Assembly (NCBI RefSeq): GCF_003855255.1
Contig: NZ_CP034072.1
Span: 2,472,430 to 2,536,429 of the forward strand
Length of the DNA: 64,000 nt
Direction of reading: 5' to 3'
Source of the DNA: Mycolicibacterium nivoides
GTDB taxonomy: Bacteria > Actinomycetota > Actinomycetes > Mycobacteriales > Mycobacteriaceae
Within the stretch, counting starts at the first letter, position 1, and every line of letters starts with the position of its first letter. A model generated the notes under the pieces. It saw only the letters and a list, made by a program, of their open reading frames with translations, ran no database searches and was not told where the DNA came from. The position numbers and the translations under genes were made by a program. Shown here piece after piece: positions 7,678-62,859 of this stretch.

Positions 7678-7692
7678 GAGAATGTGGCTCTC
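7678..7692. promoter_or_regulatory. GAGAAT-type operator, site A
   Basis: The sequence GAGAATGTGGCTCTC matches the recurrent palindrome GAGAATnnnATTCTC at 10 of 12 defined positions and is embedded in the perfect dyad ATGAGA-n7-TCTCAT at 7676-7694. It ends 29 bases before the P450 start, where a bound repressor would cover the promoter. A further 5-5-5 dyad (TCTAC-GAATA-GTAGA) follows immediately at 7694-7708. Confidence 0.6.
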
Positions 7693-7766
7693 ATCTACGA
7701 ATAGTAGATTTCCACAGCACCGGTTTCGCGTCAACGCCGCACCCCGACCTATCAGCGACAAGCAGC

Positions 7767-7781
7767 AAGAATAGTATTCTC
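7767..7781. promoter_or_regulatory. GAGAAT-type operator, site B
   Basis: AAGAATAGTATTCTC differs from the consensus GAGAATnnnATTCTC at one position only; the inner 13 bases AGAATA-G-TATTCT are a perfect palindrome. It lies 118 bases upstream of the P450 start at 7649, just beyond the visible end of the SDR remnant. It may be a second P450 operator or the old operator of the deleted gene. Confidence 0.6.
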
Positions 7782-8006
7782 TACCAGCCACCGCGCATCC
7801 TCAGTCTGCCGTCGACAGCGATCAACTGGCCCGGTGATGAAGCCCGCTCCGTCGCCGGCCAGAAACACCAGAACCGGCCCGAGGTCGCGGGCCGGATCCC
7901 CCAGCGCGCGACCTCGGGCCCGAGGAATTCCGATACCCCAGGAGCCGCCGGTGACCAGGATCCGACGGCCATCCAGGGATTGGCCCACAGGGAGATAGTT
8001 AGACAA
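7781..8006 (-). pseudogene. Short-chain dehydrogenase remnant with internal deletion and frameshift
   Basis: The minus strand still encodes an SDR N-terminus (SLDGRRILVTGGSWGIG, the Rossmann TGxxxGIG motif) joined after about 26 residues to an SDR C-terminus: DPARDLGPVLVFLAGDGAGF then ITG, and, after a shift to another frame, QLIAVDGR. A normal SDR is about 250 residues, so roughly 180 central residues including the Ser-Tyr-Lys active site are gone. No function is possible. Operator site B lies just beyond its end and the TetR gene at 8053 diverges from its start. Confidence 0.75.
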
Positions 8007-8016
8007 ACGTCAACTA
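7996..8016. promoter_or_regulatory. Possible operator between SDR remnant and TetR gene
   Basis: A dyad with 5-base arms, TAGTT-n11-AACTA, overlaps the start of the SDR remnant and ends about 36 bases before the TetR start at 8053. Position and symmetry fit an autoregulatory TetR site, but the arms are short and AT-rich, so this is a weak call. Confidence 0.3.
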
Positions 8017-8052
8017 TTTTCAAGAGCCGAATCCGTTGTTAAAGTGCCGTAT

Positions 8053-21034: not shown

Positions 21035-22330
21035 TCAGTCTCGCGCGCCGGCAACAGCTTTGGCGTTGGCCTGGAAGTCGGCGAAGGTGGTGCCGGTCTT
21101 CTCCTTGTGGCTCAACGCGCGGATGGAGACATCGTGCCCCTCGGCCTGCTTACGCAGCGCACCGACGGTCGCCTGCTCCTTGGGGACGTGGACGAACGGA
21201 TCGAAGTGGTACAGCCGCATGGCGTTCTCGTGGGTGATCTTGTTGATCTCGTCGTCGGGAACTTCGTAGGTCTCGAACACCGCGCTCAACTCCTCGGGGG
21301 CCCCGGGCCACATCGAGTCGCTGTGCGGGTAGTCCATCTCCCAGCAGATGTTGTCCACCCCGATCTCGTGGCGGTTCTTCACACCGACGGGGTCGGAGAT
21401 GAAGCAGGTCATGAAGTGCTCCCGGAACACCTCCGAGGGCAACTTGTCGCCGAAGTCCTGGTGCGTCCACGTCGAGTGCATGTCGTAGGTGCGGTCCACC
21501 CGGTCCAGGAAGTACGGAATCCACCCCGTGCCGCCTTCGGACAGCGCGATCTTGAGGCCGGGGTATGCCTTGATCGGTGCTGACCACAGCAGGTCGGCCG
21601 CGGCCTGCACGATGTTCATCGGCTGCAGGGTGATCATCACGTCCATCGGGGCATCCGGGGCGGTGATCGCCAGCTTTCCCGACGATCCGATGTGCACGTT
21701 CATCACGGTGTCGGTGTCGACCAGGGCCTCCCACAACGGCTTCCAGTACTCCAGGTCGTGGAAGGACGGGTAGCCCAGTGTCGACGGGTTCTCGGTGAAG
21801 GTCAGCGAGTGCACGCCCTTCTTCGATACCCGGCGCACCTCGTCGGCGCACAGCTGCGGATCCCAGATCGCCGGAATGGCCATCGGAATGAACCGCCCGG
21901 GGTTGGATCCGCACCACTCGTCGATGTGCCAGTCGTTGTACGCCTGCACCAGCGCCAGCGAGAACTCCGCATCCTCGGTGGCGAACAACCGCGCCGCGAA
22001 ACCCGGGAACGAGGGGAAGTTCATGGTGGCCAGCACGCCGCCGGCATTCATGTCCTTGACCCGCTCGTTGGGGTCGTAGCAACCCTTGCGGATCTCATCG
22101 AGCCCCTGGGGCTCCAGTCCGTACTCCTCCTTGGGCCGGCCCGCCACCGCGTTGAGCGCCACATTTGGGATCACCGTGTCGCGGAACTGCCAGGTGTCAC
22201 TGCCGTCGGGGTTGTGCACCAACCGTGGCGCCTCGTCGCGGTATTTCTCCGGAAGGTGGTTCTTGAACATGTTCGGCGGTTCGATGATGTGGTCGTCGAC
22301 GCTGATCAAGATCATGTCGTCTTTGTTCAC
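21035..22330 (-). CDS. Amidohydrolase family protein (amidohydrolase_2 type)
   Basis: A 431-residue metal-dependent TIM-barrel hydrolase/decarboxylase related to ACMSD-like enzymes. N-terminal ISVDDHIIEPPNMF gives the D-x-H metal pair, MNVHIGSSG a further His, and WEMDYPHSDSMWPGAPEEL the late Asp-His region. It may decarboxylate or hydrolyse a ring-derived acid. It is the first gene of the six-gene minus-strand operon. An operator-like dyad lies 43 bases upstream in the divergent promoter shared with the Rieske operon. A paralogue is at 40502. Confidence 0.87.
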   Translation of the reverse strand: MNKDDMILISVDDHIIEPPNMFKNHLPEKYRDEAPRLVHNPDGSDTWQFRDTVIPNVALNAVAGRPKEEYGLEPQGLDEIRKGCYDPNERVKDMNAGGVLATMNFPSFPGFAARLFATEDAEFSLALVQAYNDWHIDEWCGSNPGRFIPMAIPAIWDPQLCADEVRRVSKKGVHSLTFTENPSTLGYPSFHDLEYWKPLWEALVDTDTVMNVHIGSSGKLAITAPDAPMDVMITLQPMNIVQAAADLLWSAPIKAYPGLKIALSEGGTGWIPYFLDRVDRTYDMHSTWTHQDFGDKLPSEVFREHFMTCFISDPVGVKNRHEIGVDNICWEMDYPHSDSMWPGAPEELSAVFETYEVPDDEINKITHENAMRLYHFDPFVHVPKEQATVGALRKQAEGHDVSIRALSHKEKTGTTFADFQANAKAVAGARD

Positions 22331-22391: not shown

Positions 22392-22508
22392 TCTAGCGAG
22401 AATCAATGTCTGATGCCCTTGACGAGGAGATTTAGCCAGGTCAACGCACAACCTGGCACATCCTTGTTGACCATCGCCGCAAAAGATGGAAACCTCTTAG
22501 TCGGAAAT

Positions 22509-22523
22509 GAGAACCTGATTCTC
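22509..22523. promoter_or_regulatory. GAGAAT-type operator, site D
   Basis: GAGAACCTGATTCTC has perfect 5-base arms around a 5-base spacer, preceded by T, so it matches TGAGAAnnnnnTTCTC. It ends 45 bases before the GTG start of the carboxymuconolactone-decarboxylase-like gene that leads the Rieske operon. Together with site C it gives each arm of this divergent promoter its own operator. Confidence 0.65.
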
Positions 22524-22567
22524 GTCACCGAGAGTCAGCCATGGTTCATCGAGAGGAGAACCGCCTC

Positions 22568-23098
22568 GTGCGCCTGCCCCCGTTGCCCGCCGAGGAGTGG
22601 GACGACGACGTGCGACGAGCACTGTCGGTCATGCTTCCGGAGGAGCGGCTCAACCCCGAGGGTGCGGGAACCGCGCTGTCGACCCTGGCCCGCCACCCCG
22701 CACTGACCAAGGCGTTCCTACGCTTCAGCAATCATCTGCTGTTCCGCTCGACGCTGGAACCGCAGATGCGGGAGCTCGCCATCCTGCGGATCGCCCATCG
22801 CAAGAAATGCGAATACGAGTGGGCGCACCACGCATTCATCGGCAAGTCCGAGGGCCTCACGGATGAGCAGATCGCGAGTAGCACGAGCGGCGACGGTTCC
22901 TCCCCCCTCGACCAATTGGTGCTCGACTCCGTCGACGAACTCGACGGGCAATCGGAGATCTCGGACGGCACCTGGACCGCCCTGAGCGAGCACCTCGATG
23001 AGCGCCAGCGCATGGACCTGGTCTTCACAATCGGCGGCTACGGCCTGATGGCCATGGCCTACAACACCTTTGGAATTGCGCCGGAATCCGGCCACTAA
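22568..23098 (+). CDS. Carboxymuconolactone decarboxylase-family protein
   Basis: A 176-residue AhpD/CMD-fold protein. The family helix is LAILRIAHRKKCEYEWAHH, with a Glu-x2-His pair but no CxxC, so it is not an AhpD peroxidase. The start is taken as GTG 22568 (VRLPPLPAEEWDDDV) with AGGAG upstream; ATG 22541 would add nine residues. It heads the operon carrying the Rieske oxygenase. Family members decarboxylate or open lactones of ring-cleavage products, or are uncharacterised; the exact role is open. Confidence 0.85.
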   Translation: MRLPPLPAEEWDDDVRRALSVMLPEERLNPEGAGTALSTLARHPALTKAFLRFSNHLLFRSTLEPQMRELAILRIAHRKKCEYEWAHHAFIGKSEGLTDEQIASSTSGDGSSPLDQLVLDSVDELDGQSEISDGTWTALSEHLDERQRMDLVFTIGGYGLMAMAYNTFGIAPESGH

Positions 23099-23123
23099 CT
23101 CAAGAAGAAAGTAGAGGTAGATG

Positions 23124-24473
23124 ATGGCGTTCTTCCCGAAGCCGGCCGCCGGCAGCTGGACCGAGAACTGGCCCGAACTGGGCACCGGCCCGGTCAACTA
23201 CGAGGATTCAATCGATCCTGAGCAGTGGAAACTGGAGCAGCAGGCCATCTTCCGCAAGACCTGGCTCCAGATGGGCCGGGTGGAGTTGATTCCCAAGAAG
23301 GGCCGATACATCACCCGTGAGCTGCCGTCGGTCGGCCCCGGCACCTCGATCATCATCGTCAACGACGGTGAGCAGATCCGCGCCTTCTACAACCTGTGCC
23401 GCCACCGCGGCAACAAGCTGGTCTGGAACGACTACCCGGGCGAAGAGGTCTCCGGCAGCTGCAGGCAGTTCGTCTGCAAGTACCACGCCTGGCGTTATGA
23501 CCTCAAGGGCGACCTGACCTTCATCCAGCAGGAGCAGGAGTTCTTCGACGTCGACAAGGCCGACTACCCGCTCAAGCCCGTGCGCTGCGAGGTGTGGGAA
23601 GGCTTCATCTTCGTCAACTTCGACGACGACGCGGTGTCGCTTGAGGAGTACCTGGGTGAGTTCGCCGAGGGCCTCAAGGGTTATCCGTTCCACGAGATGA
23701 CCGAGCACTACAGCTACCGCTCCGAGATCAAGGCCAACTGGAAGCTGTTCATCGACGCGTTCGTCGAGTTCTACCACGCGCCGATCCTGCACATGAAGCA
23801 GGCGGAGAAGGAGGAAGCCGAGAAGCTGGCCAAGTTCGGCTTCGAGGCGCTGCACTACGACATCAAGGGTGATCACTCGATGATCTCGTCCTGGGGTGGC
23901 ATGAGCCCGCCGAAGGATCTGAAGATGGTCAAGCCCATCGAGCGCATCCTGCACAGTGGCCTGTTCGGGCCGTGGGATCGCCCCGACATCAAGGGCATCC
24001 TGCCCGACGAACTGCCGCCGGCGATCAACCCCGGCCGGCATTCGACGTGGGGCCAGGACTCGTTCGAGTTCTTCCCGAACTTCACCCTGCTCTTCTGGGC
24101 GCCGGGCTGGTATCTGACCTACAACTACTGGCCAACCGGTGTGGACAGCCACATCTTCGAGGCCGACCTGTACTTCGTGCCGCCGAAGAACCTGCGCGAA
24201 CGGCTGTCCCAGGAACTGGCCGCAGTGACGTTCAAGGAGTACGCGTTCCAGGACGCCAACACGCTGGAAGCCACCCAGTCGCAGATCGGCACGCGCGCCG
24301 TACTCGACTTCCCGCTGTGCGACCAGGAGGTCCTGCTGCGCCACCTGCACCACACCGCTCACAATTACGTCGACCGGTACAAAGAAGCCAAGGCCAACGG
24401 GAATGGTTCAACGAACGGCAATCACGCCGCTCCAAGTGAGAAGGCCGCAGAAAAGGATGCCGCAAATGTCTAA
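23124..24473 (+). CDS. Rieske non-heme iron oxygenase, alpha subunit
   Basis: A 449-residue ring-hydroxylating oxygenase large subunit. The Rieske [2Fe-2S] site is Cys92-x-His94 (NLCRHRGNK) with Cys118-x2-His121 (CKYHAW); the 23-residue gap between the two pairs is longer than the common 15-17. The catalytic Fe(II) site is in FIDAFVEFYHAPILH, giving Glu-x2-His-x4-His. Two ATGs are in tandem (23121, 23124); the second has better spacing to GAGG. The tail (NGNGSTNGN) is low-complexity. No beta subunit, ferredoxin or reductase gene adjoins; the small unknown at 24466 overlaps its end. Confidence 0.92.
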   Translation: MAFFPKPAAGSWTENWPELGTGPVNYEDSIDPEQWKLEQQAIFRKTWLQMGRVELIPKKGRYITRELPSVGPGTSIIIVNDGEQIRAFYNLCRHRGNKLVWNDYPGEEVSGSCRQFVCKYHAWRYDLKGDLTFIQQEQEFFDVDKADYPLKPVRCEVWEGFIFVNFDDDAVSLEEYLGEFAEGLKGYPFHEMTEHYSYRSEIKANWKLFIDAFVEFYHAPILHMKQAEKEEAEKLAKFGFEALHYDIKGDHSMISSWGGMSPPKDLKMVKPIERILHSGLFGPWDRPDIKGILPDELPPAINPGRHSTWGQDSFEFFPNFTLLFWAPGWYLTYNYWPTGVDSHIFEADLYFVPPKNLRERLSQELAAVTFKEYAFQDANTLEATQSQIGTRAVLDFPLCDQEVLLRHLHHTAHNYVDRYKEAKANGNGSTNGNHAAPSEKAAEKDAANV

Positions 24474-24795
24474 GTTGCCTGAAGAATTCGCCGACCTGGA
24501 GCGGTTCAGCGACTGGTGCCTGCCCACCGAGGAGGAGCGCTATCAGAAGCGTCTCAACTCGTCGATGGACGAGATGCAGGAACTGTACGACGCAGGCATG
24601 GCACGCCTCGAGGACATCATGGTCTACGTCGATGCCCGCTTCCCGCTGGCGAGCATGCCGGACGACGCCAAGGCGCTGGTGCATCTCGGTCAATCCGTCG
24701 TCATGGTGAGCTTCCCGATCGAGGTGTGGAAGCAACCGCGGGTGCTCGACAGCGGTGCGGCCTACATCAATCTCATCAAGGAGCCGGTGGTCTGA
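24466..24795 (+). CDS. Unknown small protein coupled to the Rieske oxygenase
   Basis: A 109-residue soluble protein starting MSKLPEEFADLERFSDWCLP, with an AAGG site nine bases upstream of ATG 24466. It overlaps the oxygenase stop by 8 nt and precedes the amidohydrolase GTG by two bases, so it is tightly coupled. The first half is predicted helical and charged (TEEERYQKRLNSSMDEMQEL), the second half beta-like (VVMVSFPIEVW, AAYINLIKEPVV). It has one cysteine, no metal motif and no resemblance I can see to oxygenase beta subunits. An accessory or assembly role for the oxygenase is a guess. Confidence 0.75.
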   Translation: MSKLPEEFADLERFSDWCLPTEEERYQKRLNSSMDEMQELYDAGMARLEDIMVYVDARFPLASMPDDAKALVHLGQSVVMVSFPIEVWKQPRVLDSGAAYINLIKEPVV

Positions 24796-24797
24796 TC

Positions 24798-26024
24798 GTG
24801 CTGACCCTCAAAGCTGCGGGTCTGGTCGACGTCGATGCCGGGACGATCATTCGTCCCGGCATTGTCCGTGTCGACGGGGACCGAATCGTAGGTATAGGCG
24901 GGCCGATTCCAGAAGATTCCGACGTGATCGATCTGGGCGACTCCATCCTGCTGCCCGGACTGATGGACATGGAAGTCAACCTGTTGATGGGTGGCCGGGG
25001 TGAGAACCCGGGCCTGTCCCAGGTTCAGGACGATCCCCCGACCCGCGTCCTGCGTGCGGTGGGCAACGCCCGCCGGACGCTGCGCGCCGGGTTCACCACG
25101 GTGCGCAACCTCGGGTTGTTCGTCAAGACCGGCGGATATCTGCTCGACGTCGCCCTGGGCAGGGCCATCGATGCCGGGTTGATCGATGGTCCGCGCATCA
25201 TCCCCGCCGGCCACGCCATCACCCCTACCGGCGGGCACCTGGATCCGACGATGTTCGCGGCGTTCATGCCGGGCGTGCTGGAGCTGACCATCGAGGAAGG
25301 CATCGCCAACGGGGTCGATGAGATCCGCAAGGCGGTCCGCTACCAGATCAAGCACGGGGCTCAGCTGATCAAGGTGTGCTGCTCGGGCGGTGTCATGTCC
25401 CTCACCGGTGAGGCTGGCGCACAACACTATTCGGACGAGGAATTGCGCGTCATCGTCGACGAGGCGCATCGGCGCGGACTGCGGGTCGCGGCCCACACCC
25501 ACGGCGCCGAGGCGGTCAAACATGCCGTGGACTGCGGCATCGACTGCATCGAGCACGGTTTCCTGATGGATGACGAGGCCATCCAGAAGCTGGTCGACAA
25601 CGACCGGTTCCTGGTCACCACCCGCCGGCTGGCACAGGCCATGGACGTCTCGAAGGCACCGAAGGTGCTGCAGGACAAAGCAGCCGAGATGTTCCCCAGG
25701 GCCGAGACCTCCATCAAGGCGGCCTACGAGGCCGGGGTGAAGATCGCTGTGGGTACCGACGCGCCGGCCATCCCGCACGGCAAGAACGCCGACGAACTCG
25801 TCACGCTGGTCGAGTGGGGCATGCCGCCGGCCGCGGTGCTGCGGTCAGCCACCACGATCGCCGCCGATCTGATCAACGTCACCGACCGGGGCCGGCTGGC
25901 AGAAGGGCTGCTCGCCGACATCATCGCGGTGCCGGGCAATCCACTCGAGGACATCACCGTTACACAACATGTGGATTTTGTAATGAAAGGCGGTAAGGTC
26001 TTCCGCAATGAGCACATCAACTGA
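24798..26024 (+). CDS. Metal-dependent amidohydrolase (imidazolonepropionase-like)
   Basis: A 408-residue PF01979-type hydrolase starting at GTG 24798. An N-terminal beta-sandwich (GIVRVDGDRIVGIGG) precedes the barrel; metal-site and catalytic residues are visible in LIKVCCSGGVMS, AAHTHGAEAVKHAVD, CIEHGFLMDDE and AVGTDAPAIPHG, and the C-terminal segment LINVTDRGRLAEGLLADIIA is standard. The first metal motif (HxH) reads MEVNLLMG here, so the His pair appears changed. It may open a lactone or amide ring. Its last 17 bases overlap the SnoaL-like gene. Confidence 0.85.
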   Translation: MLTLKAAGLVDVDAGTIIRPGIVRVDGDRIVGIGGPIPEDSDVIDLGDSILLPGLMDMEVNLLMGGRGENPGLSQVQDDPPTRVLRAVGNARRTLRAGFTTVRNLGLFVKTGGYLLDVALGRAIDAGLIDGPRIIPAGHAITPTGGHLDPTMFAAFMPGVLELTIEEGIANGVDEIRKAVRYQIKHGAQLIKVCCSGGVMSLTGEAGAQHYSDEELRVIVDEAHRRGLRVAAHTHGAEAVKHAVDCGIDCIEHGFLMDDEAIQKLVDNDRFLVTTRRLAQAMDVSKAPKVLQDKAAEMFPRAETSIKAAYEAGVKIAVGTDAPAIPHGKNADELVTLVEWGMPPAAVLRSATTIAADLINVTDRGRLAEGLLADIIAVPGNPLEDITVTQHVDFVMKGGKVFRNEHIN

Positions 26025-27602: not shown

Positions 27603-27605
27603 GGC

Positions 27606-31715: not shown

Positions 31716-31717
31716 CT

Positions 31718-37157: not shown

Positions 37158-37161
37158 GTGT

Positions 37162-45612: not shown

Positions 45613-45636
45613 ACGATACTGATGTTTTCTGAATTG

Positions 45637-45651: not shown

Positions 45652-46039
45652 TAGACCGTGACATGACCAGACTGCTTAACCATGCGTCCCGATCATGCGT
45701 AGCGTCATGGCTGTGCTGGAGAAATCGGAGATCCGGTTCCTTCCCTGGCGACCGCCGTATGGCCTACGAGATGCGTTGCGACGGTCCACCGCTGGCGGCT
45801 CCAGCCTGGTGGGCGAGCCACCTCGAACTCGACTGGCAGGTGTTCCGTCGGTGACCCCGAACATGCGCTCGTTCCGACCGGTTTGGCCTCGACGACGCCG
45901 ACGACTGCCTTGTCCAGTGACGCCAGCGATCACACCGTTTCGCGATATTGATGGCGACAGACTAAATCCAGCAATAAATGTGCGACTGCCTTGCCGAGTA
46001 TTAATGCGCAACCGGTCGTATCTCGTGACCTTCTGCCGT
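45652..46039. other. Gene-poor stretch at the edge of the low-GC island
   Basis: These 388 bases hold no convincing gene. Short open frames occur on both strands (for example a plus-strand frame reading MAVLEKSEIRFLPWRPP from about 45707), but coding signals change frame quickly and no family is recognised; it may be decayed coding sequence. Base composition falls toward the right end. No tRNA, integrase or attachment-site repeat was found here. Confidence 0.5.
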
Positions 46040-51130: not shown

Positions 51131-52438
51131 TCAACCCGAGGTTTCCCGAGCCGTCTTCTCGGCCTGGGCCGCCTTGACCCGGCCCTCGTTGATCTCGGCC
51201 ATCGCCTCGGGAATCTCACCTGCGGTGAATTTGTCGCGACCGGTGGGCAGCCCACCGAAGGCGTAGGTCTCGTCGAACAACGGGGCGTCCGACGGACGGC
51301 GGCGCGACTCGACCTTCTCGATCACCGGCTCCAGGCGCTTGGCCTTGTCCGCCACCGCCTTTGCGTCCCGCTCGATGAACTCGGGCAGGATCTCCTTGCC
51401 CATGATCTCGATTGACTCCATGGTGCCCTCGTGGCTGCGCGGGTTGAGCAGCAGGATGATCTCGTCGACCCCGCTCGCCTCGTAACCGCGCAGGAATTCG
51501 CGCACGGTGTCGGGCGAACCGATGGCGCCGCGGCCGGGACCATAGGCCAGCGACGGGTCCTCCTTGACCGCCTGCTCGTACCGCTCCCACACCTTGGTGC
51601 GGCCGGGGGTGTGCATGCCGGTCAGGTAGTAGTGCATGATGCCGAACGAGAAGAAGCCGCCGCCGATGCCGAGCCGCTTGAGCGCCTCTTCGTCGGACTT
51701 GGCCACCATCATCGACAGGTCGCCGCCGATGGCCAGGATGTTGGGGTTGATCGCCGGCGTGATCGGAGCACCCTGTTCTTCGAATTCCTTGTAGTACCCG
51801 TCAACCCGCTCCTTGAGCGCCTCGGGACCGGTGTAGGCGAAGCTCAGCGCACCGATGGCCTTCTGGGCCGCCATCTGCACCGACGACGGGCGCGTGCACG
51901 CCACCCAGACCGGCGGGTGCGGTGACTGCAGTGGCTTGGGGATCACATTGCGGGCAGGCAACTCGACGTGCTCGCCCTTGAACCCGGTGAACGGGGCTTC
52001 GGTCATACAGCGGATGGACACCTCGAGGGCTTCCTCCCACATGGTCCGCTTGTCGGCGGGATCGATGTTGAAACCGCCGAGCTCGGCGACCGAGGATCCC
52101 TCACCCGTGCCGAACTCCACTCGACCGCGCGACAAGTGGTCCAGGGTGGCAACCCGCTCGGCGATCCGCGCGGGGTGGTTGATCGGCGGCGGCAGGTGCA
52201 TGACACCGAAGCCGAGCCGAATATCCTTCGTCCGCTGGCTGGCCGCGGCCAGGAACATCTCCGGTGCGGTGGCGTGGCAGTACTCCTCCAGGAAGTGATG
52301 CTCGGTCAGCCAGACAGTCGAAAAGCCGGCCTTGTCGGCGGCCTCCACTTCGTCCAGGCCGTCCTGGAACATCTGGAGTTCATCGTCGTCGGACCACGGG
52401 CGCGGCAGCGCGAACTCGTAGAACAGCGAGATCTTCAT
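51131..52438 (-). CDS. LLM-class flavin-dependent monooxygenase
   Basis: A 435-residue luciferase-family enzyme. [14 protein letters not shown] at the start, TVWLTEHHFLEEYCHATAPE, GVMHLPPPINHPARIAERVA and RVEFGTGEGSSVAE are the FMN-dependent alkanal/alkane-type pattern. The C-terminal region is long (about 90 residues beyond the usual 345) and charged. With the FMN reductase at 48670 it would form a two-component monooxygenase, possibly of Baeyer-Villiger or hydroxylating type. ATG 52438 overlaps the KstD-like stop by 4 nt. Confidence 0.88.
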   Translation of the reverse strand: MKISLFYEFALPRPWSDDDELQMFQDGLDEVEAADKAGFSTVWLTEHHFLEEYCHATAPEMFLAAASQRTKDIRLGFGVMHLPPPINHPARIAERVATLDHLSRGRVEFGTGEGSSVAELGGFNIDPADKRTMWEEALEVSIRCMTEAPFTGFKGEHVELPARNVIPKPLQSPHPPVWVACTRPSSVQMAAQKAIGALSFAYTGPEALKERVDGYYKEFEEQGAPITPAINPNILAIGGDLSMMVAKSDEEALKRLGIGGGFFSFGIMHYYLTGMHTPGRTKVWERYEQAVKEDPSLAYGPGRGAIGSPDTVREFLRGYEASGVDEIILLLNPRSHEGTMESIEIMGKEILPEFIERDAKAVADKAKRLEPVIEKVESRRRPSDAPLFDETYAFGGLPTGRDKFTAGEIPEAMAEINEGRVKAAQAEKTARETSG

Positions 52439-54249
52439 CGATTTCCTCCTGAGGGGTTACTGACGGTGTCCTGGATTTGTTGGTTGGCTGCTTGTGAAAC
52501 TGGTTGCGCGACAGCCTGTTGGGCACTCCGGTCAGCGATGTGTCTGGCCGCCACGTACCCGAATGTCATCGCAGGCCCGATCGTCGCGCCCGCACCGGCG
52601 TAACTGCGGCCCATGACCGCCGCCGAGACGTTGCCCACCGCATAGAGCCCATCGACGGTGGTCTCGTCGGCGCGCAGCACCCGGGCGTGTTCATCGGTGC
52701 GCAGGCCGCCCGAGGTGCCCAGGTCGCCGAGGATGATCTGGAACGCGTAGTACGGCGGCTTGCCGAGCGGGCGCAGATTCGGGTTCGGCAGGGTCGGGTC
52801 GCCGTAGTAGTTGTCGTACGCGCTGTCACCGCGGTTGAAGTCGTCGTCGTGCCCGCCGTGCGCCAGCTGATTGAACCGCTCGGCAGTGGCCCGCAGGTTC
52901 TGCGCGGGCACACCGATCTTTCCGGCCAGCTCCTCCCAGCTGTGCGCCTCGACCACGACACCCGAATCCAGCCAGGCCCGTGGCACCTGGCGCCCGGTGG
53001 GCACCGGAGCGAACGGAATCTTGGGGATGGGCAGGTGCCCGGCCACGACGTACCGGTGGAACGAGTCGATGTCGGTGACCAGCCAGCACGGGATGTGCCC
53101 GATGCCGGACTGCTGGCCCTCGATCATGGCGTGGGCGAAGTCCATGTAAGGGGCGGCTTCGTTGATGAACCGCTTGCCGTCGCCGTTGACGACGAACTGC
53201 GACGGCATCATGCGCTCGTTCAGCATGAACTGCAGCCGGCCGTCGGGCCAGCAGATCGCCGGGAACCACCACGCCTCATCCAGCAGTTCAATGGCGCCGC
53301 CGGCCTTTTGACCGGCCCGGATGCCGTCACCGGTGGCAGCCGGATTGCCGAAGCTCCAGTCCTTTTCGAGCACCGGCAGATGTTCCTTGCGCCACGCCAT
53401 GTCATGGTCGAACCCGCCCGAGGCCAGGATCACGCCCCCGGTGGCCCGGATCCGCAGCGGCTTGCCGTCACGCTCGACGACGGCGCCGAGTACCGCGCCG
53501 TCCGCACCGGTGATCAGCGAGGTCATCGGCGCATCCAGCCACAGCGGGATGTCGTGCTGCTTGAGCGCCAGCCGCATCCGCGCGGCCAGCGACTGGCCGA
53601 TGGCGGCCATCCGGTCACCGAGCACCCGGGCCCGCACCATCCGCCAGATCAGCTTGAGCAGCACGGCCTTGCCGCGCCAGTTCTGCCGGATCTGGTAGAA
53701 GAGCCGAAGATCCTTGGGGGCGAACCAGATTCCCTTGGGCGCCAGGGCCAGCGGGGCGAGCAGCTCCTGCTCGTGCTCACCGAGCTTGCGCAGGTCGATG
53801 GCCGGGACGTTGATGGTGCTCCCCTGCGCCGAGCCGCCGGGCAGTTCCGGGTAGTAGTCGGCGTAGCCGGGTTTCCAGACGAACTCGAACCAATCACTGT
53901 TGTGCTCGAGGAAGTCCATCATCTCCGGCGCGGCCTCGACATACTTGCGGAGCCGGGCGTCGCTGACCGTGCCTTCGGTGATCTGCTTGAGGTAGTCGAA
54001 AACCCCGTCCGGTGAGGGCACATAGCCGGCACGACGCTGCGACGGCGCCCCGGGTACCCAGATCCCGCCGCCCGACAACGCGGTGGAACCGCCGAAGTGG
54101 GAGGACTTTTCGATCACGAGGGTATCGAGACCGGCCGCGTCGGCTGCCAACGCAGCCGTCATGCCGCCGCCGCCGGAGCCGACGACGAGCACGTCGACCG
54201 TTTTGTCGAACGTCTGCTCGGCGGTGTGTGCACTGGTGTCTGAGGTCAT
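52435..54249 (-). CDS. KstD-like FAD-dependent dehydrogenase
   Basis: A 604-residue flavoprotein of the 3-ketosteroid-delta1-dehydrogenase/fumarate-reductase family. It has the FAD loop [37 protein letters not shown], the middle [11 protein letters not shown] and the C-terminal [18 protein letters not shown], where the Tyr and the GxGxTIGP loop match the KstD catalytic Tyr/Gly region. It may insert a double bond into a cyclic ketone and so help to aromatise a ring. In this operon it lies directly next to MhpA- and MhpB-like genes, the order one would expect for aromatisation, hydroxylation and cleavage. Confidence 0.88.
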
Positions 54250-55190
54250 GCTGCGATTCCTACCGCCGTCCTGATTGCGAATCCTGCGATCAATTCCGGT
54301 GCCGCCCGGTAGAAGTGATTCCCCGTCCGGTACGGCCCGTTGACTGCCAGCGCCGCGAATGCGGCCACCCAGGTGCGGATCTCGTGCGCCGAATTGCCCC
54401 CTTCGGCGGCGATGAAGGCGTTGGACCAGCTGTCCAGATCCGTCAGCCGGCCCTCGTCGAAGATCTCCAGCAGACTGTGGTCCCAGTCGGGATTCAGCGG
54501 CCGAAGCGCACTCTGCCCATGGGCGAAGTCGTGGGCGGCCTGGCTCACCGCGGACTGCCGGGCCATGCGCTGTTCAGCGGTCATCGGGACTCCGTGCACG
54601 ATCCGGTCCAGGGCAGCCGGCGGTGCGGTGGCCAGCGTCGGCACCGGTGGGTCGTGCGACAGCCCACCGGAACCCAACACCAGCACCCGCTTGTCGAGGG
54701 TTGCCAGGTAGGCGCCCACCGCCGCCCCCAGCGCGCGGGACCGCGACAGCGGACCCAGCGGGGTGGCAACGGAATTGATGAAGATCGGCACGATGGGACG
54801 CGCGGTCGCCTCGCCGAACAACTCCTGCAGCGGCTGCACGGTGCCATGGTCGACGTCCATGCTCGTCGAGACGGCGACGTCCACCCCGGACTCCCACACC
54901 GCCTCCGCGCACTGCTGGGCGATGTCACCGGCAACGTTCAGCGCACCCAGGTATGTCCCGTAATCCCCCACTCCCGTTGCGGCGGTACCGATGCAGAACG
55001 GGGGCATCAGCCGGTAGAAGAACCCGTTGTAGTGGTCGGGCGAGAAGGTGACGACCAGTTCGGGGTCGTAGTCGGCAACAAACGCGCGAGCACTCCCGAC
55101 CGCTGTTCTGATCTCGTCGAGGAGATCAGCCGACGGTCCCGGAAGATTCAGCAGTGGGCTGTGGGACATACAGCACAGGGCTACTGGCAT
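54246..55190 (-). CDS. Class III extradiol ring-cleavage dioxygenase, MhpB-like
   Basis: A 314-residue LigB-superfamily enzyme, the same length as E. coli MhpB. It begins [15 protein letters not shown], keeps [14 protein letters not shown], the catalytic His in [12 protein letters not shown] and the second His in [11 protein letters not shown]. It cleaves a catechol ring next to the hydroxyls (2,3-dihydroxyphenylpropionate in MhpB). ATG 55190 has GGGAGG nearby; a longer frame is rejected. Its first 65 bases overlap the end of the hydroxylase gene and its stop overlaps the KstD-like gene by 4 nt. Confidence 0.92.
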
Positions 55191-56808
55191 CGTTCGCACC
55201 TCCCTCCAGCACATGCAGTACGTCGAACAGGGCATTGCTCAGTTCCGGGGCACGCTGGGCGATGTCGGCACCGGCTATGCAGCGGTCCGGGCGCAGCACC
55301 AGCACAGATTCCGCGTGCACGTCGAACCAGGCTTTGAGCGCACCCGTGCGGTCACCGACGATCACCACGGAGCCGTCGTCGCTGTCCGCGTCGTGCCCGG
55401 TCCAGAACAACTGGGTCTGCGGGCGGGCCGCGATGAACTTCGCCCCCAGGGCTTTCCAGCGCTGATAGGCCCGCTCGCCGAGCAACGCGCGTGGATTGTT
55501 GTTCCAGCACAGCACCGCGAAGTTCAGCCCGATCACATCGTCGAGCAACACGTTCGACTGCTCGCGGGTGTCCACCCGCGGCTGGATGAACAACGTGCCG
55601 GCCGGAGCATCGGGTGTCGGCGGCTTCGGATGGTAGACCGCACCCTGGTCGTACCGCGGCATCGGCTTGAACCGCATCTCCAGCACGTAGCGCTTGAGCG
55701 CCGGAACCACCGACGCACCGCGAATCAGCTTGTCCCGCACCACCGCGATCTTGCGGTTGGTGGGCGAGATGACCCGCCCCACCAACGTCGACAGGTCGAT
55801 CATGGCCCTGGCGTGCTTGCGGCGCTCGGTGTCGTAGGTGTCCAGGAGTGCGTCGCCGGCCTGCCCGTTGACCACCGCGGCCAGCTTCCAGCCGAGGTTG
55901 GCCGCGTCCCGGATGCCGCTGTTGTAGCCCTGGCCCTGCCACACCGGCATCAGATGCGCGGCATCGCCGGCCAGCAGGAACCGGTCCTTCCGGAAGTTCC
56001 CGGCGATACGGGAATGGTGGGTGTAGACCCGGCGACGGATCACGTCGACCTTGTCGGGATGCGGTACGAACGGAGCGAGCAGCCGCGCGACGAATTCGGG
56101 ATCCTCGGCCTGCTCGTCGGTTTCGTCGGCGTGGATCATGAACTCGAACCGGCGGATGCCGTGCGCGATCGAGATGGAGGCGTACGGCCGATCCGGGTCG
56201 GCACCGACCTCGCTGTTCGGATGTCCCAACGGATCGTTGGCCAGATCGACCACCACCCAGCGGGTCGGCGAAGTGGTGCCGTCGAACGACACCCCCATCA
56301 GGCGGCGGGTGGCGCTCCGGCCGCCATCGCACCCCACCACATAGCGCGCCCGCACCGCGGGCACGTCCGGACCGAACTCGACCGTCACTCCGTCAGCCGT
56401 CTCGACCGCCGCTTCCATCCGGCGACCCCAGGCCACCTGCACATGCTCGAACCGGTCCATCCCGACCAGCAACTGCGCGTCGACCAGCGGCTGGACGAAG
56501 CCGTTGCGCTTGGGCCAGCCGAATCGTGCGTCCGGAGGCGCCATTTCGGCCAGCAGCCGGCGGTGACCGTCGTAGAACCGCAGGATCTGGTTGGGCACGG
56601 TGTGCGGCAGGACCGCCTCGACCAGTCCGATGGACTGGAACGTCCGCAGCGATTCGTCGTCGAGTCCGACTCCCCGGGGGTAGTCGATGAGGGTGTCGCG
56701 TTCTTCCACCACGAGCGTTCGGACACCCTGGATGCCAAGAACATTCGCCAGGGTCAGGCCGACCGGCCCGGCCCCGACGATGATGACGTCGACCTCTTGG
56801 TCGGTCAC
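55126..56808 (-). CDS. FAD-dependent aromatic hydroxylase, MhpA-like
   Basis: A 560-residue class A flavin monooxygenase. [18 protein letters not shown] is the N-terminal FAD loop, [14 protein letters not shown] the DG motif and [18 protein letters not shown] the second FAD motif; the C-terminal thioredoxin-like domain (about 400-560) is as in 3-(3-hydroxyphenyl)propionate hydroxylase. It adds a hydroxyl next to an existing one to give a catechol for the MhpB-like enzyme. GTG start overlaps the MhpC-like stop by 4 nt. Confidence 0.92.
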
Positions 56809-57716
56809 GCCGGCTTCCCCAGCAGGAATTCCAGATGCAACCGGTTGAACGTCTCAGGGTCTTCGTATTGCGGCCAGTGCCCGCAGTCCGGCATCACCTC
56901 GAACCGGGCACCGGGGATCATCGACGCGATGCGCCGGCCCTCGCTGACGTCGGCGGTCGGGTCATCACTGGTCCACAGCACCAGAGTGGGCGCAGTGATC
57001 GCTCCGTATTCCTTCTCCCCCAGCAGGTTCCGCGCGCGGATCTCCGGGTCCTGCAGTGCCATGATGTCGCTCATCGCGGCGACGAAACCGGGCTGGCGGT
57101 ACACCGCCTGGCGACTCGCCACGATGTCGTCGTAATCCTTCGTCTTGTCGGCCATCAGCCACTTGATCCTGGCCTGCACGGTCTCCCAGCTCGGGTTCTC
57201 CGCGGCCGCCATGGACAGCGTGATGATCCGCTTCATCACCTCGGGGTCGGCCTGTGAACCACCGGCGGTGTTGAGCACCAACCGATCGACGCGGTCCGGG
57301 TGATCGGCGGCGGCCCGCGCGGCCACCCAGCCGCCCAGCGATTCACCCGAGATATGGGCACGCTGCGCACCGATCGTGTCGAGGAAGGCGATCAGATGGT
57401 CGACGTAGTGCGCGACCTCCAGCGGATGGCCGGGCTTGTCGGTGTAGCCGTGCCCGAGCATGTCGATCGACCACGTCGAGAAATGCTCGGCATGAGATTC
57501 CAGATTGCGCACATAGGCCTCGGCATGTCCGCCCGACCCGTGCAGCAGAACCAGCACGGGCAGCTTCGGGTCACCGGCATGCAGGTAGCGGGTGCGGATG
57601 CCGCCCACATCGAGGTAACCCTGCGAGAACGCCACGCCCTGCAGGTCAGCCCAGACGCTCTCGTGCTTGGTGGCCGAAACGGAACCGGATGCCGGCCCGG
57701 CGGCAGTGCTTGTCAT
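56805..57716 (-). CDS. Alpha/beta hydrolase, MhpC-like
   Basis: A 303-residue alpha/beta hydrolase: [20 protein letters not shown], nucleophile Ser126 in [10 protein letters not shown], and [12 protein letters not shown] with the catalytic His. It would hydrolyse the C-C bond of the ring-cleavage product. ATG 57716 has GAGGGG five bases upstream; a longer frame would cross operator site I and is rejected. It is the first gene of the eight-gene operon that contains the hydroxylase, extradiol dioxygenase, KstD-like enzyme, LLM monooxygenase, SDR, cyclase and FMN reductase. Confidence 0.88.
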
Positions 57717-57737
57717 GTTCCCCTCTCCGACGGTAAA

Positions 57738-57752
57738 GAGAATGATATTCTC
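57738..57752. promoter_or_regulatory. GAGAAT-type operator, site I
   Basis: GAGAATGATATTCTC is a perfect 6-3-6 palindrome matching the recurrent consensus exactly. It lies 22-36 bases upstream of the MhpC-like start and about 95 bases upstream of the divergent IclR gene. It probably represses the eight-gene operon. Confidence 0.75.
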
Positions 57753-57846
57753 CAAATTTGTAAGCACTTTGCTCATATAGCGCACATCAGAGTGCATTAT
57801 TATCAGAGCATCACTCTCGCGGTTCTATCTGTCAAGGAGGGGCGCG

Positions 57847-58572
57847 ATGCCGGCCAAGGCAACCCAGCCGCAGGCACAAACGAAGACCGACAGCACCCCC
57901 AACGGGGTGCCGGGTTCACAGACGCTGGCGCGCGGATTGAGCGCGCTCGCGGCCATCGCCGCGGCCCCGACCGGGCTCACCGTGCAACAGGTCGCCGACC
58001 ACGTCGGCGCCCATCGCACGATTGCCTACCGGCTGCTGGCCACCCTGAGCCAGTTCCGGTACGTGACAAAGGGTGAGGACGGCCGCTACCGGCCGGGTGC
58101 CGGGCTGGCGGCGCTCGGTTCGTCCTTCGACAACAACATGCGCCAGCTCAGCGTCCCGACCCTGCGCGCACTTGCCGACGAGCTCGGCAGCACGGTGTCG
58201 TTGCTGGTGGCCGAGGGCGATCAGCAGGTGGCGGTCGCGGTGATCGTCCCGACGCAGGTGTTCTACCAGCTGTCCTTCCACGAGGGCAGCCGCCATCCGC
58301 TCGAGCGCGGCGCCGCCGGAGTGGCACTGCTGGCGAGCATGCCGCCGCGTCCCGGCGAACGCGAACTGGTCCGCGAGACCCGCGAACAGGGTTGGGTGAT
58401 CACCCACGGCGAGATCGAACCGGACACCTATGGCCTTGCGGTGCCCGTGCGCCGGCGTCTGCCGTCGCCGCCCACCTGCATCAATCTCATCTCGCACCGC
58501 GAAGACGTCGTGCTGAGCGGCAAGGACGCGGTGGTCCGGGCAGCAAACGAACTATCAGCAATTCTGTACTGA
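57847..58572 (+). CDS. IclR family transcriptional regulator
   Basis: A 241-residue IclR protein. The winged helix-turn-helix (SQTLARGLSALAAIAAAPTG, LTVQQVADHVGAHRTIAYRL) is followed by RYVTKGEDGRYRPG, the wing, and an effector domain with LADELGSTVSLLVAEGDQQ, HPLERGAAGVALLA and YGLAVPVRRR. AAGGAGGGG precedes ATG 57847. It diverges from the MhpC-like operon and precedes the second KstD-like gene (14 nt), so it may activate or repress either side. IclR proteins frequently sense aromatic acids, which suits the location. Confidence 0.9.
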   Translation: MPAKATQPQAQTKTDSTPNGVPGSQTLARGLSALAAIAAAPTGLTVQQVADHVGAHRTIAYRLLATLSQFRYVTKGEDGRYRPGAGLAALGSSFDNNMRQLSVPTLRALADELGSTVSLLVAEGDQQVAVAVIVPTQVFYQLSFHEGSRHPLERGAAGVALLASMPPRPGERELVRETREQGWVITHGEIEPDTYGLAVPVRRRLPSPPTCINLISHREDVVLSGKDAVVRAANELSAILY

Positions 58573-60200: not shown

Positions 60201-60217
60201 TCGGCTACGGTCGAGAC

Positions 60218-60775
60218 GTGCTCGGGAACCCGCGCAGCGCAGCTCAGACCCGCATTCTCGATGCGGCGCTTGAGCTGATCGCCGAGCACGGGGTCAGCGG
60301 CACGTCGTTGCAGATGATCGCCGACGCACTCGGCGTCACGAAAGCCGCTGTCTACCACCAGTTCAAGACCAAGGAAGCCATCGTCATCGCGCTCACCGAG
60401 CGTGAACTCGGCCAGCTCGAGGATGCGCTGGAGGCGGCCGAGGCCGAGGGCTCGCCCACCCGGGCTCGGGAAGTCCTGCTCACCCGGGTGATCGACATGG
60501 CTGTATCGCGTCGACGTGCCGCCAGCACACTGCAGTTCGATCCGGTCGTGGTGCGACTGCTCGCCGAACACGAACCGTTTCAGCAGTTCATCGACCGGCT
60601 CTACTCAGCCATGCTCGGTGACCAGTCCGGCGACGGGGCACGGGTCCATGCGGCGGTGTTGTCCGGCGTGATCAGCGTCGCGGTGATGCACCCGCTGGTG
60701 ACCGACCTCGACGATGACACCCTGCGCGCCGAGTTGCTGCAGACTATGCGACGCGTCCTGGCCCTACCCGGCTGA
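60218..60775 (+). CDS. TetR family transcriptional regulator
   Basis: A 185-residue TetR protein starting at GTG 60218: TSLQMIADALGVTKAAVYHQ is the helix-turn-helix, followed by FKTKEAIVIALTEREL. It has a short ligand domain. The gene follows the second KstD-like gene by 17 nt and probably belongs to its operon. Its end overlaps the convergent MeaB gene by 12 nt. No dyad was recognised in the short upstream gap, so its target is not clear. Confidence 0.87.
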   Translation: MLGNPRSAAQTRILDAALELIAEHGVSGTSLQMIADALGVTKAAVYHQFKTKEAIVIALTERELGQLEDALEAAEAEGSPTRAREVLLTRVIDMAVSRRRAASTLQFDPVVVRLLAEHEPFQQFIDRLYSAMLGDQSGDGARVHAAVLSGVISVAVMHPLVTDLDDDTLRAELLQTMRRVLALPG

Positions 60776-61657
60776 ATCCGCGATCAATTGCGCCGCAGCA
60801 CTGTACGGATCGGTGGTGCCGTCGGCCACGGCGGCAGCCAACCCGTCCAGCTCACCGTGATTGCGAAGCAAGGTCTGGGCTAGCGACAGGATCTGGGTCC
60901 TGGCCCGCGCGGCGCGGCGCGCCGGGGTGTCGGATCGGTGGTGAGCGTCGATGGCATCGACCAGATCGGCCAGCCCCTCCCCTTGAGCCGCAACGAGTTT
61001 GAGCACCGGAACAGTCGCCTCGGCCCGAAGGTCACGCGCAGTCTGATCGGCACCCTCGCGGTCGGCCTTGTTCACCACCACCAGGTCGGCGACCTCCAGC
61101 AGTCCGGCCTTGGCGGCCTGCACGGCGTCACCGGCACCGGGGTTGAGGATCACCACGGTCGGGTCGGCGATGGCGGCGATCTCGATCTCGGACTGCCCTA
61201 CGCCCACCGTCTCCAGCACGATCAGGTCGTAGGCCAGCGCGGCCAGCAGCCGGATCGCCGCGGGTACCGCGGCAGCCAGCCCACCCAGATGCCCACGGGT
61301 CGCCACCGATCGGATCAGCACATCGGGATCGTTGATGTGGGCGGCCATCCGGATCCGGTCCCCGAGTAACGCACCGCCGCTGTACGGCGACGACGGATCC
61401 ACCGCCAGCACCGCGACCCGCAGACCGCGCTCTCGGTAGGCGCCGACGAGCGCGCCGACCGTCGTCGACTTTCCGGCTCCCGGCGGCCCGGTGACCCCGA
61501 TGACGCGCGGAGATGCCGGGCCGAGCACCGCGAGAACCTCGTCGCGACGGTCGCTTTCGACCAGGCTCAGCAATCGCCCGACGGCACGCTGGGACCCGCC
61601 GCGCGCCGCGGTGATGAGCTCCTCGATGCTGGGTGGGCTGGTCATCACAGTCGACAT
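60764..61657 (-). CDS. meaB: Methylmalonyl-CoA mutase-associated GTPase MeaB
   Basis: A 297-residue G3E-family GTPase. Walker A is GVTGPPGAGKSTT, with DPSSPYSGGALLGDRIRM (switch I), ETVGVGQSE (switch II) and VVVNKADREG for guanine binding, all diagnostic of MeaB. It protects and reloads adenosylcobalamin in methylmalonyl-CoA mutase, which is not in the window. ATG 61657 overlaps the thiolase stop (TAATG). Being coupled to a pathway thiolase implies that degradation releases propionyl-CoA or methylmalonyl-CoA. Confidence 0.92.
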   Translation of the reverse strand: MSTVMTSPPSIEELITAARGGSQRAVGRLLSLVESDRRDEVLAVLGPASPRVIGVTGPPGAGKSTTVGALVGAYRERGLRVAVLAVDPSSPYSGGALLGDRIRMAAHINDPDVLIRSVATRGHLGGLAAAVPAAIRLLAALAYDLIVLETVGVGQSEIEIAAIADPTVVILNPGAGDAVQAAKAGLLEVADLVVVNKADREGADQTARDLRAEATVPVLKLVAAQGEGLADLVDAIDAHHRSDTPARRAARARTQILSLAQTLLRNHGELDGLAAAVADGTTDPYSAAAQLIADSAG

Positions 61658-62817
61658 TACGGTGCAGGCACCTCGATGACCGTCGCCGAGCCCATACCGC
61701 CCCCGGCACACATGGCGGCCACGCCGATACCGCCACCGCGCCGGCGCAACTCATGGACCATCGTGGCCAGCATGCGCGCCCCGGTGGCGGCCACCGGATG
61801 GCCCAGCGAGCAACCGCTGCCGCTGACGTTGACGATCTCCGGGTTGATGTCGAGCAGCTTGATAGTGGCCACGCACATCGACGCAAAGGCCTCGTTGATC
61901 TCGAACAGATCCACGTCCGACAACGAAAGGCCTGCCCGGCCAAGTGCTTTGGTGATGGCTTCGACGGGGGCCAGCCCGGTCGAGGCCGGGTCGACGCCCA
62001 CCGAGGACCAGGACTTGATGGTCGCCAGGGCCGGCAGCCCGAGCTTGTCGCTGGCGATGGTCAGCAGTGCGGCCGCGTCGTTGGCGCCGCACGCATTTCC
62101 CGCGGTGATCGAGAACCCGTCGATCTCTGGATGCAGCGGCTTGAGCGCCGCCAGTTTCTCCAGTGTGGTGTCACGACGCGGATGCTCGTCGGTATCGAAC
62201 AGCCCATGGGGAGTTTGGATGGGGACGATCTCCTCCTTGAACCTGCCCTCGTCGATCGCCGCGACCGCCTTGAGGTGCGAGCCCAATGCCCACTGGTCCA
62301 TCTCCTCGCGGCTCACCCCGGCCTTTACCGCGGCGTTCCAACCGACTGTGATCGACATGTCCATATTGGGTGCGTCCGGCCGGTCGGGATGCGTCGGCGG
62401 GAACCAGTTGACCCACTCGGCGTCCTTGGCACTGCTTGTCGCGCGGACGAACCGCGGTGAGGTTGAGGCCGAGTTCACCCCGCCGGCCAGGATCAGCCGG
62501 TCCATCCCGGCGCGGATGCTGGCGGCCGCACTCTGCACGGCCGCCTGACCGGCCGCGCAGTGCCGATTGATCGACGCTCCCGGGACCGTCGTGAGACCGG
62601 CGGTGATCGCGGCGTGGCGGGCGATGACGCCTCCACCGTAGAGACCTTCGCCCAGGATCACGTCGTCGACTGGGACCGTGCCGCGCCCGGCCAGGTCATC
62701 GACCGCAGCGCGCACCACATGGTCAGCGAGCGCGTAGGCGTCCGTATCGCGCAACGTGCCCTTCTTCGCTGTGCCGATAGGAGTACGCAGCGCGGACACG
62801 ATGACGGCTTCAGGCAT
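61657..62817 (-). CDS. Acetyl-CoA acyltransferase (thiolase)
   Basis: A 386-residue thiolase starting at ATG 62817 with GGGAG upstream; a longer frame crosses operator site J and is rejected. Nucleophile Cys87 is in SINRHCAAGQAAVQSAA, NEAF is in FEINEAFASM, the His is in GCSLGHPVAATGAR and the second Cys in MCAGGGMGSATV. It differs from the thiolase at 16628, so it probably handles another chain length or branched 3-ketoacyl-CoA. It is cotranscribed with meaB under operator site J. Confidence 0.92.
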   Translation of the reverse strand: MPEAVIVSALRTPIGTAKKGTLRDTDAYALADHVVRAAVDDLAGRGTVPVDDVILGEGLYGGGVIARHAAITAGLTTVPGASINRHCAAGQAAVQSAAASIRAGMDRLILAGGVNSASTSPRFVRATSSAKDAEWVNWFPPTHPDRPDAPNMDMSITVGWNAAVKAGVSREEMDQWALGSHLKAVAAIDEGRFKEEIVPIQTPHGLFDTDEHPRRDTTLEKLAALKPLHPEIDGFSITAGNACGANDAAALLTIASDKLGLPALATIKSWSSVGVDPASTGLAPVEAITKALGRAGLSLSDVDLFEINEAFASMCVATIKLLDINPEIVNVSGSGCSLGHPVAATGARMLATMVHELRRRGGGIGVAAMCAGGGMGSATVIEVPAP

Positions 62818-62844
62818 TGATCTGCTCCCTGGTTCACCCGGTAA

Positions 62845-62859
62845 GAGAATGCTATTCTC
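62845..62859. promoter_or_regulatory. GAGAAT-type operator, site J
   Basis: GAGAATGCTATTCTC is a perfect 6-3-6 palindrome matching the consensus. It lies between the thiolase (28 bases) and the SDR (38 bases) and could control both divergent transcripts. Confidence 0.75.

Follow-up and report, generated by a model that had tools for sequence, protein, structure and literature searches.

Background

Which regulator governs the catabolic genes on the stretch G000:C1:2472430-2536429 (64,000 nucleotides; in the following, the window), and how far does its control reach? G000 is the genome analysed here, a single contig of 6,905,961 bases, and other G numbers denote the genomes compared with it; seven-digit positions refer to the genome, shorter ones to the window. 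A sequence-only reading of the window had reported a palindrome repeated in promoters, taken it as the mark of an apparent regulon and proposed a TetR-family protein encoded nearby as its binder. The catabolic regulon marked by this palindrome is real and covers about 150 kb, as supported by clustering in the genome, intergenic placement and conservation across species and two other genus labels. Judged from sequence comparison, the palindrome GAGAATNNNATTCTC is with good probability the operator of the TetR-family regulator encoded at 30996-31715, the predicted repressor of its own gene and of coenzyme A (CoA)-dependent catabolic operons over the same approximately 150 kb.

Distribution and placement of the palindrome

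Nine matches to TGAGAATNNNATTCTCA with at most three mismatches are present in the window, as compared to 0.82 ± 0.96 expected and a maximum of four among 100 shuffles. Ten copies had originally been counted; nine of these are confirmed at 7677, 7766, 22508, 30924, 31717, 32157, 45636, 57737 and 62844, most of them one base below the position first given, and the tenth, at 22373, is not matched at three mismatches. The latter element reads TGAGAA-N7-TTCTCA, i.e. seven rather than five bases separate its half-sites, and is retained with one to three differences in 12 of 13 loci (the thirteenth, L206, is oppositely oriented and uninformative). The copy at 30924 is indeed a perfect 17-mer, and the count of three perfect copies is true of the core, the 15-base centre of the 17-mer operator (30924 plus 57738 and 62845 in the original numbering). 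The sites are as follows (given without strand; strands in brackets are those of the neighbouring genes).

7677..7693: operator, 2 mismatches, at the 5' end of the CYP150-like P450 gene; sites at P450 orthologues in 4 of the 8 relatives compared below
7766..7782: operator, 3 mismatches to the 17-mer and 1 in the core, upstream of the P450 gene
22376..22390: weak off-spacing element (originally 22373) and doubtful member, 3 mismatches to the core as a 15-mer
22508..22524: operator, between the divergent amidohydrolase gene (-) and the CMD/Rieske operon (+)
30924..30940: operator, perfect 17-mer TGAGAATACTATTCTCA, between the genes for TetR (+) and an enoyl-CoA hydratase (-), beside a conserved TACAAT
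31717..31733: operator, directly after the TetR gene, 40 bases upstream of open reading frame (ORF) 31765
32157..32173: operator, upstream of the short-chain dehydrogenase/reductase (SDR) gene 32308; sites at SDR orthologues in G020 and G034
45636..45652: operator, 31 bases before the hydrolase gene 44782-45612
57737..57753: operator, perfect core, between the genes for an MhpC-like hydrolase (-) and an IclR-family regulator (+)
62844..62860: operator, perfect core, between thiolase/MeaB (-) and SDR (+) genes; SDR side in 7 of the 8 relatives and under other genus labels

Throughout the 6.9-Mb genome only seven exact cores occur, every one within 2.215-2.541 Mb. The degenerate pattern RAGAAYNRNRTTCTY, with each site counted once, has 15 matches, and its reversed form, used as control, has one. 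Instead of recurring with equal frequency elsewhere, 13 of the 15 fall within the 150 kb of 2.391-2.541 Mb; the others locate at korA (2215255) and at 4455170. The regulated region thus reaches beyond the window and spans 2.391-2.541 Mb.

In a 456-kb stretch around the window, 91 % of which is coding according to genes called by our own script, 14 cores with at most one mismatch were detected (reversed control, 0), yielding the consensus GAGAAT-N3-ATTCTC. Despite the high coding density the centres of 12 of these 14 cores are intergenic (binomial p 4e-11). The view that all sites occupy intergenic or promoter positions therefore holds except for two centres inside called ORFs, which probably reflect annotation. 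Site 57738 is followed by an ATG with the Shine-Dalgarno-like GGAGAGGGG near 57716, and the called start of the MhpC-like gene at 57797 is therefore probably too far upstream; site 32158 lies in the 3' end of a weakly scoring 144-amino-acid ORF, 143 bases upstream of the SDR start. Once the starts of TetR and MhpC are corrected, a start codon follows about 25-65 bases after 10 of the 14 sites, on one side or both, and is 79-250 bases away from the remaining ones; several sites hold -10-like TANNNT words. That six sites lie within 50 bases of a start codon proved roughly right, given starts near 57716 and 7675. A chance origin of the palindromes is rejected by the shuffles and by the clustering.

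The TetR gene and its own promoter

The proposed binder is encoded next to the perfect 17-mer.

30996..31715, + strand: TetR-family regulator of 239 amino acids, proposed operator binder (start corrected from 31062)

The start had been placed at 31062. It was moved to 30996, where ATG and reading frame are conserved in 16 aligned upstream stretches; the resulting 239-amino-acid form is common among homologues. The 217-amino-acid form carries the TetR N-terminal helix-turn-helix domain PF00440 (E 1.8e-7, 31.3 bits, cutoff 24), and no NCBIfam family was matched at 1e-10. Carriage on plasmids was discarded as an option, no match to the protein being found in the plasmid collection at 1e-20. The structure model is nearly all helix (predicted local distance difference test score, pLDDT, 74.9), with TetR regulators as top PDB matches; the nearest solved folds (Foldseek) include acyl-CoA-binding FadR proteins, KstR2 ranking 12th.

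The most telling evidence comes from the promoter of tetR itself. Among the best 80 of 396 named relatives, all from Mycobacterium or Mycolicibacterium, the exact core is located upstream of tetR in 80 of 80 loci, and the same applies to 30 of 30 loci in a second set (best 30 of the 60 carriers of the genus), the species of which overlap with the first. The genus names of the 80 lead us to regard the host as a mycobacterium; Mycolicibacterium vaccae and M. parafortuitum belong to the named carriers. The position is nearly invariant: measured to the beginning of the matched 217-amino-acid frame, the core lies at -137 in 66 of the 80 named loci and at -136 to -149 in the others, which puts the operator about 56-71 bases before the corrected start. 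Of the 80 cores, 78 have the spacer ACT or AGT, and 67 are followed by TACAAT within 30 nucleotides. Furthermore, the site was retrieved in all eight relatives whose assemblies comprise 1-3 contigs.

For co-occurrence, 119 genomes were compared, i.e. 60 TetR carriers and 11 non-carriers of the genus (three of the latter, G003, G025 and G070, only 72-80 % complete) and 48 genomes from other families of the order. At least three exact cores are present in 57 of the 60 carriers vs none of the 11 non-carriers (Fisher 1.4e-10, not corrected for kinship and thus overstating independence, since the genomes are related). Among the non-carriers, G044 and G070 possess one exact core each and the others none. 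In the other families, 3 of 48 genomes hold one core, and TetR was found in none of them at 1e-20.

Conservation of the sites in relatives and other genera

Targets were compared across the eight relatives with 1-3 contigs (G034, G020, G065, G006, G011, G039, G060 and G004) by examining the flanks of all 94 degenerate matches for the starts of homologues of at least 45 % identity and half coverage, at which level some target matches are homologues rather than orthologues. Altogether, genes homologous to those of this region adjoin 86 of the 94 sites, and the other 8 have none nearby. Promoter comparison thus yielded five promoters in 8/8 relatives, those of amidohydrolase 2417699, acyl-CoA dehydrogenase 2463808, amidohydrolase 21035-22330 (site 186-260 bases away and common to the CMD side), TetR and acyl-CoA ligase 2539584. 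Three more genes have sites in 7/8, namely the CMD gene heading the Rieske operon, SDR 62897 and the ferredoxin-like gene 2541098. A korA site occurs in 3/8. None of the eight has a site at the same genes as those at DUF899/SDR 2391406 and hydrolase 44782-45612; in G004 one site adjoins the homologue of a neighbour of this hydrolase gene. Site 57737 is kept with at most two mismatches in 11 of 16 upstream stretches, and homologues of ORF 31765 (48-53 % identity) preceded by a site at 36-40 bases were found in G020 and, elsewhere in the genome, in G060.

Beyond the genus, TetR was detected (E<=1e-50) in 46 of 397 genomes sampled from the order. Six of the 46 carry one or the other of two further genus labels within the family (five g31, one g37; 71-75 % identity); at least three g31 genomes are without TetR at this threshold. 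From the names of their amidohydrolase homologues we guess these labels to be Nocardia or Aldersonia. All six orthologues have the exact core upstream, centred 62-65 bases from the corrected start. In the 10-80 kb read of each of these genomes, sites recur at the acyl-CoA dehydrogenase (divergent), CMD-Rieske, thiolase-SDR and ligase promoters, not all of them in each genome, with no match to the reversed pattern in 347.5 kb. The further mycobacterial genome G439 agrees.

Second TetR copies of 56-63 % identity occur in g31 genomes and have an exact core of their own in three of four cases. At L321, L325 and L327 (56-60 % identity) they are divergent from an acyl-CoA dehydrogenase gene and carry their own exact operator, a duplicated TetR/dehydrogenase module.

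A separate observation concerns genes resembling the APH-type kinase gene 2482451 (50-52 %), which in G006, G060, G004 and G026 have an exact core 46-49 bases upstream, outside the main cluster. G026 keeps this core though the motif is otherwise missing there.

Alternative readings

Several observations weigh against a single regulon under this TetR protein and are given here together with the readings that they favour. One of them is of general nature: the TetR structure model is of moderate confidence and its superposition on the solved folds is poor (root-mean-square deviation about 8-10 Å).

Instead of forming one controlled pathway, unrelated pathways could share the operator through local spread of promoters. 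The window encodes, next to TetR 30996, four further TetR proteins (8158, 14693, 43147 and 60218) and the IclR protein 57847, and the P450 and IclR/Mhp promoters are variable members, with sites at P450 6369 and IclR 57847 in just four of the eight relatives each. The five promoters recurring in 8/8 relatives and the three more genes in 7/8, several of them also under other genus labels, speak against such spread, as does the fact that most recurring target genes encode CoA-ester or ring-oxidation functions. We therefore regard independent pathways as rather unlikely. The proposal of one pathway, advanced along with the regulon, is plausible insofar as the same promoters recur together, and weaker for the two inconstant promoters.

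A second alternative starts from a gene outside the main cluster. A korA-like gene for a 2-oxoacid:ferredoxin oxidoreductase (genome 2213068-2215269) has an exact core 247 bases upstream. Inspection of this site (2215255) in 30 genomes, 22 carriers and 8 non-carriers, recovered it with at most one mismatch in five carriers (exact in G000, G020, G034 and G063, one mismatch in G004) and, at about the same place, in weaker form in the non-carriers G009 (2 mismatches) and G002 (3). Since weaker forms occur in genomes without TetR, korA is no firm regulon member and doubtful as a core target. Two related regulators might then read the palindrome, with TetR 30996 serving the core operons and a paralogue acting on korA and the scattered sites. 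Many genomes, this one among them, encode TetR paralogues of 29-38 % identity, and the second copies of the g31 genomes point in the same direction. The non-carriers, however, hold no or one exact copy, so a paralogue alone does not maintain the regulon, and divided control of this kind appears improbable, though conceivable.

It is quite unlikely that an island regulator, IclR 57847 or TetR 43147, binds the palindrome and TetR 30996 is merely one target. At E<=1e-60, the threshold applied to all rival regulators, both were found in every one of the 57 motif-rich genomes and in no other genome of the genus, the remaining carriers G026, G056 and G063 included; homologues of TetR 43147 were also found in 9 genomes of other families. 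Within the genus both fit more tightly than TetR 30996, of whose 60 carriers 57 are motif-rich. Co-occurrence with the motif is thus a property of the entire island and does not single out the binder; the argument is carried by promoter placement. Near the IclR gene the exact core is present in 6 of 21 genomes (this genome, G020, G065, G011, G039 and G054) and a site with at most two mismatches in 16 of 21, a level reached by 10 of 1000 shuffles; the IclR promoter is hence a probable but less constant target. The exact core stands upstream of tetR 30996 in 80/80 loci, as opposed to these 6/21 near IclR and to none near TetR 43147 in five stretches (this genome and four further ones). The second TetR copies with their own exact sites (3/4) also speak for TetR.

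G026, G056 and G063, which keep TetR, have 0-1 exact cores. Only G056 retains a clear tetR operator (one mismatch) without either rival; G026 shows a 3-mismatch remnant and G063 no site, which again counts against TetR 30996. G045 possesses eight exact cores although its IclR match (G045:C1:5593133-5593795) holds two stop codons, one TGA and one TAG; this match has merely 65 % identity and looks interrupted.

As for the other regulators of the window, TetR 8158 and TetR 60218 were rejected as sole binders (found in 24 and 46 of the 119 genomes, respectively, and missing from many motif-rich ones), and TetR 14693 is unlikely, being not found in the motif-rich G041 and G057. TetR 30996 is accordingly the best candidate and, on the comparative evidence, very probably the regulator of the regulon. 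The original proposal of this protein as the binder is well supported by comparison (80/80 and 6/6 upstream cores).

Proposed regulation

TetR 30996 would most likely bind the operator as a dimer and repress its own gene (autoregulation) as well as the amidohydrolase, acyl-CoA dehydrogenase, Rieske oxygenase, acyl-CoA ligase, thiolase/MeaB-like GTPase and SDR operons; in part of the species it may also repress the CYP150-like P450 and the Mhp-type ring-cleavage operon. As most of the sites lie about 25-65 bases before starts and several contain -10-like words, bound repressor would block RNA polymerase. Release of TetR from the DNA could be brought about by a pathway intermediate, most likely an acyl-CoA thioester, a ligand that is a guess in view of the poor superposition on the FadR fold.

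Genes of the region and predicted pathway

The genes adjoining the sites in the window are listed below.

6369..7694, - strand: cytochrome P450, closest solved chain CYP150A6 (6dcd); the ATG may be at 7675
21035..22330, - strand: amidohydrolase-superfamily protein, most similar among solved chains to DitZ (8uyr) and next to PtmU3; first gene of a co-directional run that extends to 14175
22541..28412, + strand: operon for CMD protein, Rieske oxygenase, 109-amino-acid ORF, amidohydrolase, SnoaL-like protein and two acyl-CoA dehydrogenase-like proteins
30005..30787, - strand: enoyl-CoA hydratase, divergent to TetR
31765..32199, + strand: 144-amino-acid ORF, weak coding score, no Pfam match at 1e-5
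32308..33153, + strand: mycofactocin-coupled SDR (TIGR03971, 386.8 bits, cutoff 300)
43967..45612, - strand: alpha/beta hydrolase and SDR behind site 45637
52435..57716, - strand: MhpC-like hydrolase, MhpA, MhpB and KstD-like flavoprotein (start 57716 predicted)
57847..58572, + strand: IclR-family regulator, rival binder and probable target
60764..62817, - strand: thiolase and MeaB-like GTPase
62897..63661, + strand: SDR, site 45 bases upstream

MhpA and MhpB match their NCBIfam equivalogs above cutoff, and the KstD equivalogs score below it. Acyl-CoA ligases, CoA-transferases and several acyl-CoA dehydrogenases are also encoded in the region (Pfam, NCBIfam and solved-structure searches). DitZ and PtmU3 presumably belong to diterpenoid metabolism. 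Taken together, these functions hint at the CoA-dependent breakdown of a cyclic compound, which may be terpenoid- or steroid-like.

A split B12-dependent acyl-CoA mutase (533 and 133 amino acids) is encoded 7-9 kb past the window at genome 2543461-2545466 (L030:7062-9067, - strand). Its best solved match is 2-hydroxyisobutyryl-CoA mutase. This assignment was rejected, since in the alignment Tyr (RQY) and Arg (ASRGTW) occupy the places of Ile and Gln in that enzyme. In methylmalonyl-CoA mutase these Tyr and Arg residues bind the carboxylate, and with both kept the more cautious assumption is a substrate that is carboxylated. The stretch preceding the mutase gene (genome 2545489-2545664) contains AAATGAGAATGCCAATACC twice, a word in which half of the operator is joined to a different second half and which is perhaps the operator of another regulator.

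Two further gene groups were noticed. At 34740-41665 of the window, two adjacent M24 metallopeptidase/creatinase-like genes are located near genes for a double-domain CoA-transferase (805 amino acids) and an amidohydrolase. In the regulated region, genome 2427693-2437316 (L027) comprises a co-directional run, the one protein tested being Mce-type (MlaD and Mce4_CUP1 domains); a 2-mismatch site lies by this run at 2427046.

More tentatively, a single TetR regulon, shared by mycobacteria and further genera of the family (perhaps Nocardia) but absent from part of the mycobacteria, might run a complete polycyclic terpenoid- or steroid-like pathway. It would comprise a DitZ/PtmU3-like amidohydrolase, the CYP150-like P450, Rieske oxygenase, KstD-like and Mhp ring cleavage, and MeaB with the split B12 mutase for a branched carboxylated intermediate, with an acyl-CoA sensed; this full version is the bolder and less probable form of the proposal. 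In either form, the proposal places many mycobacterial catabolic genes that are otherwise anonymous under one testable switch and defines which of them belong to it. The natural substrate could be sought with an operator reporter or through the growth of a tetR deletion mutant, and the system may be of use as a sensor for bioconversion strains or as a marker for the ecology of environmental mycobacteria.

Comparison with known systems

Searches of the open-licence literature brought up no paper recognisable as naming this operator. One comparable case is motif X, a palindrome of Mycobacterium sp. VKM Ac-1817D that marks the regulon of G155_05115, the orthologue of Rv0767c, and is reported to occur at phytosterol-induced promoters, including that of a TetR gene itself (PMC6593523). 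There it is assigned to another TetR protein, and its operons, which lie near P450s and a steroid isomerase, have gene numbers scattered over the genome, a feature absent here, where 13 of 15 sites share 150 kb. The letters of motif X appear only in a figure, and the comparison is one of regulator and gene layout (PMC6593523). It also precedes a second TetR gene (G155_10530), and partial identity with the present motif may therefore exist. Operators of BkaR and other mycobacterial TetR regulators were likewise predicted by species comparison (PMC4482099), for 30 regulators that are conserved, lie in divergent orientation and are given under their M. tuberculosis gene numbers. They share with the present case the conservation of operators of mycobacterial TetR regulators; the logos, shown as figures, may or may not include that of TetR 30996.

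FadR-type acyl-CoA-responsive TetR regulators rank high in the Foldseek comparison and, judged by entry code, also in the sequence comparison with solved structures. They differ by an identity of only about 15-22 % and by their role, the present targets belonging to ring/CoA catabolism and not to plain fatty-acid oxidation.

KstR and KstR2 are autoregulated TetR-family repressors with a palindromic operator at many promoters of CoA-dependent ring catabolism. The sequence-only reading had not recognised the motif as that of KstR or KstR2, and we agree: the consensus GAGAAT-N3-ATTCTC is unlike the KstR word quoted there and presumably unlike the KstR2 operator. The KstR2 entry 4w97 is absent from the 15 solved-structure sequence matches of TetR 30996 at 1e-3 and appears solely as the distant 12th fold match; orthology to KstR, judged by entry codes, presumably does not apply. 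Gene set and genomic place are different as well. What is shared is the design, a TetR repressor with a palindrome at many promoters of a large CoA-dependent ring-catabolism set, and the regulon is in this sense KstR-like but with a different operator.

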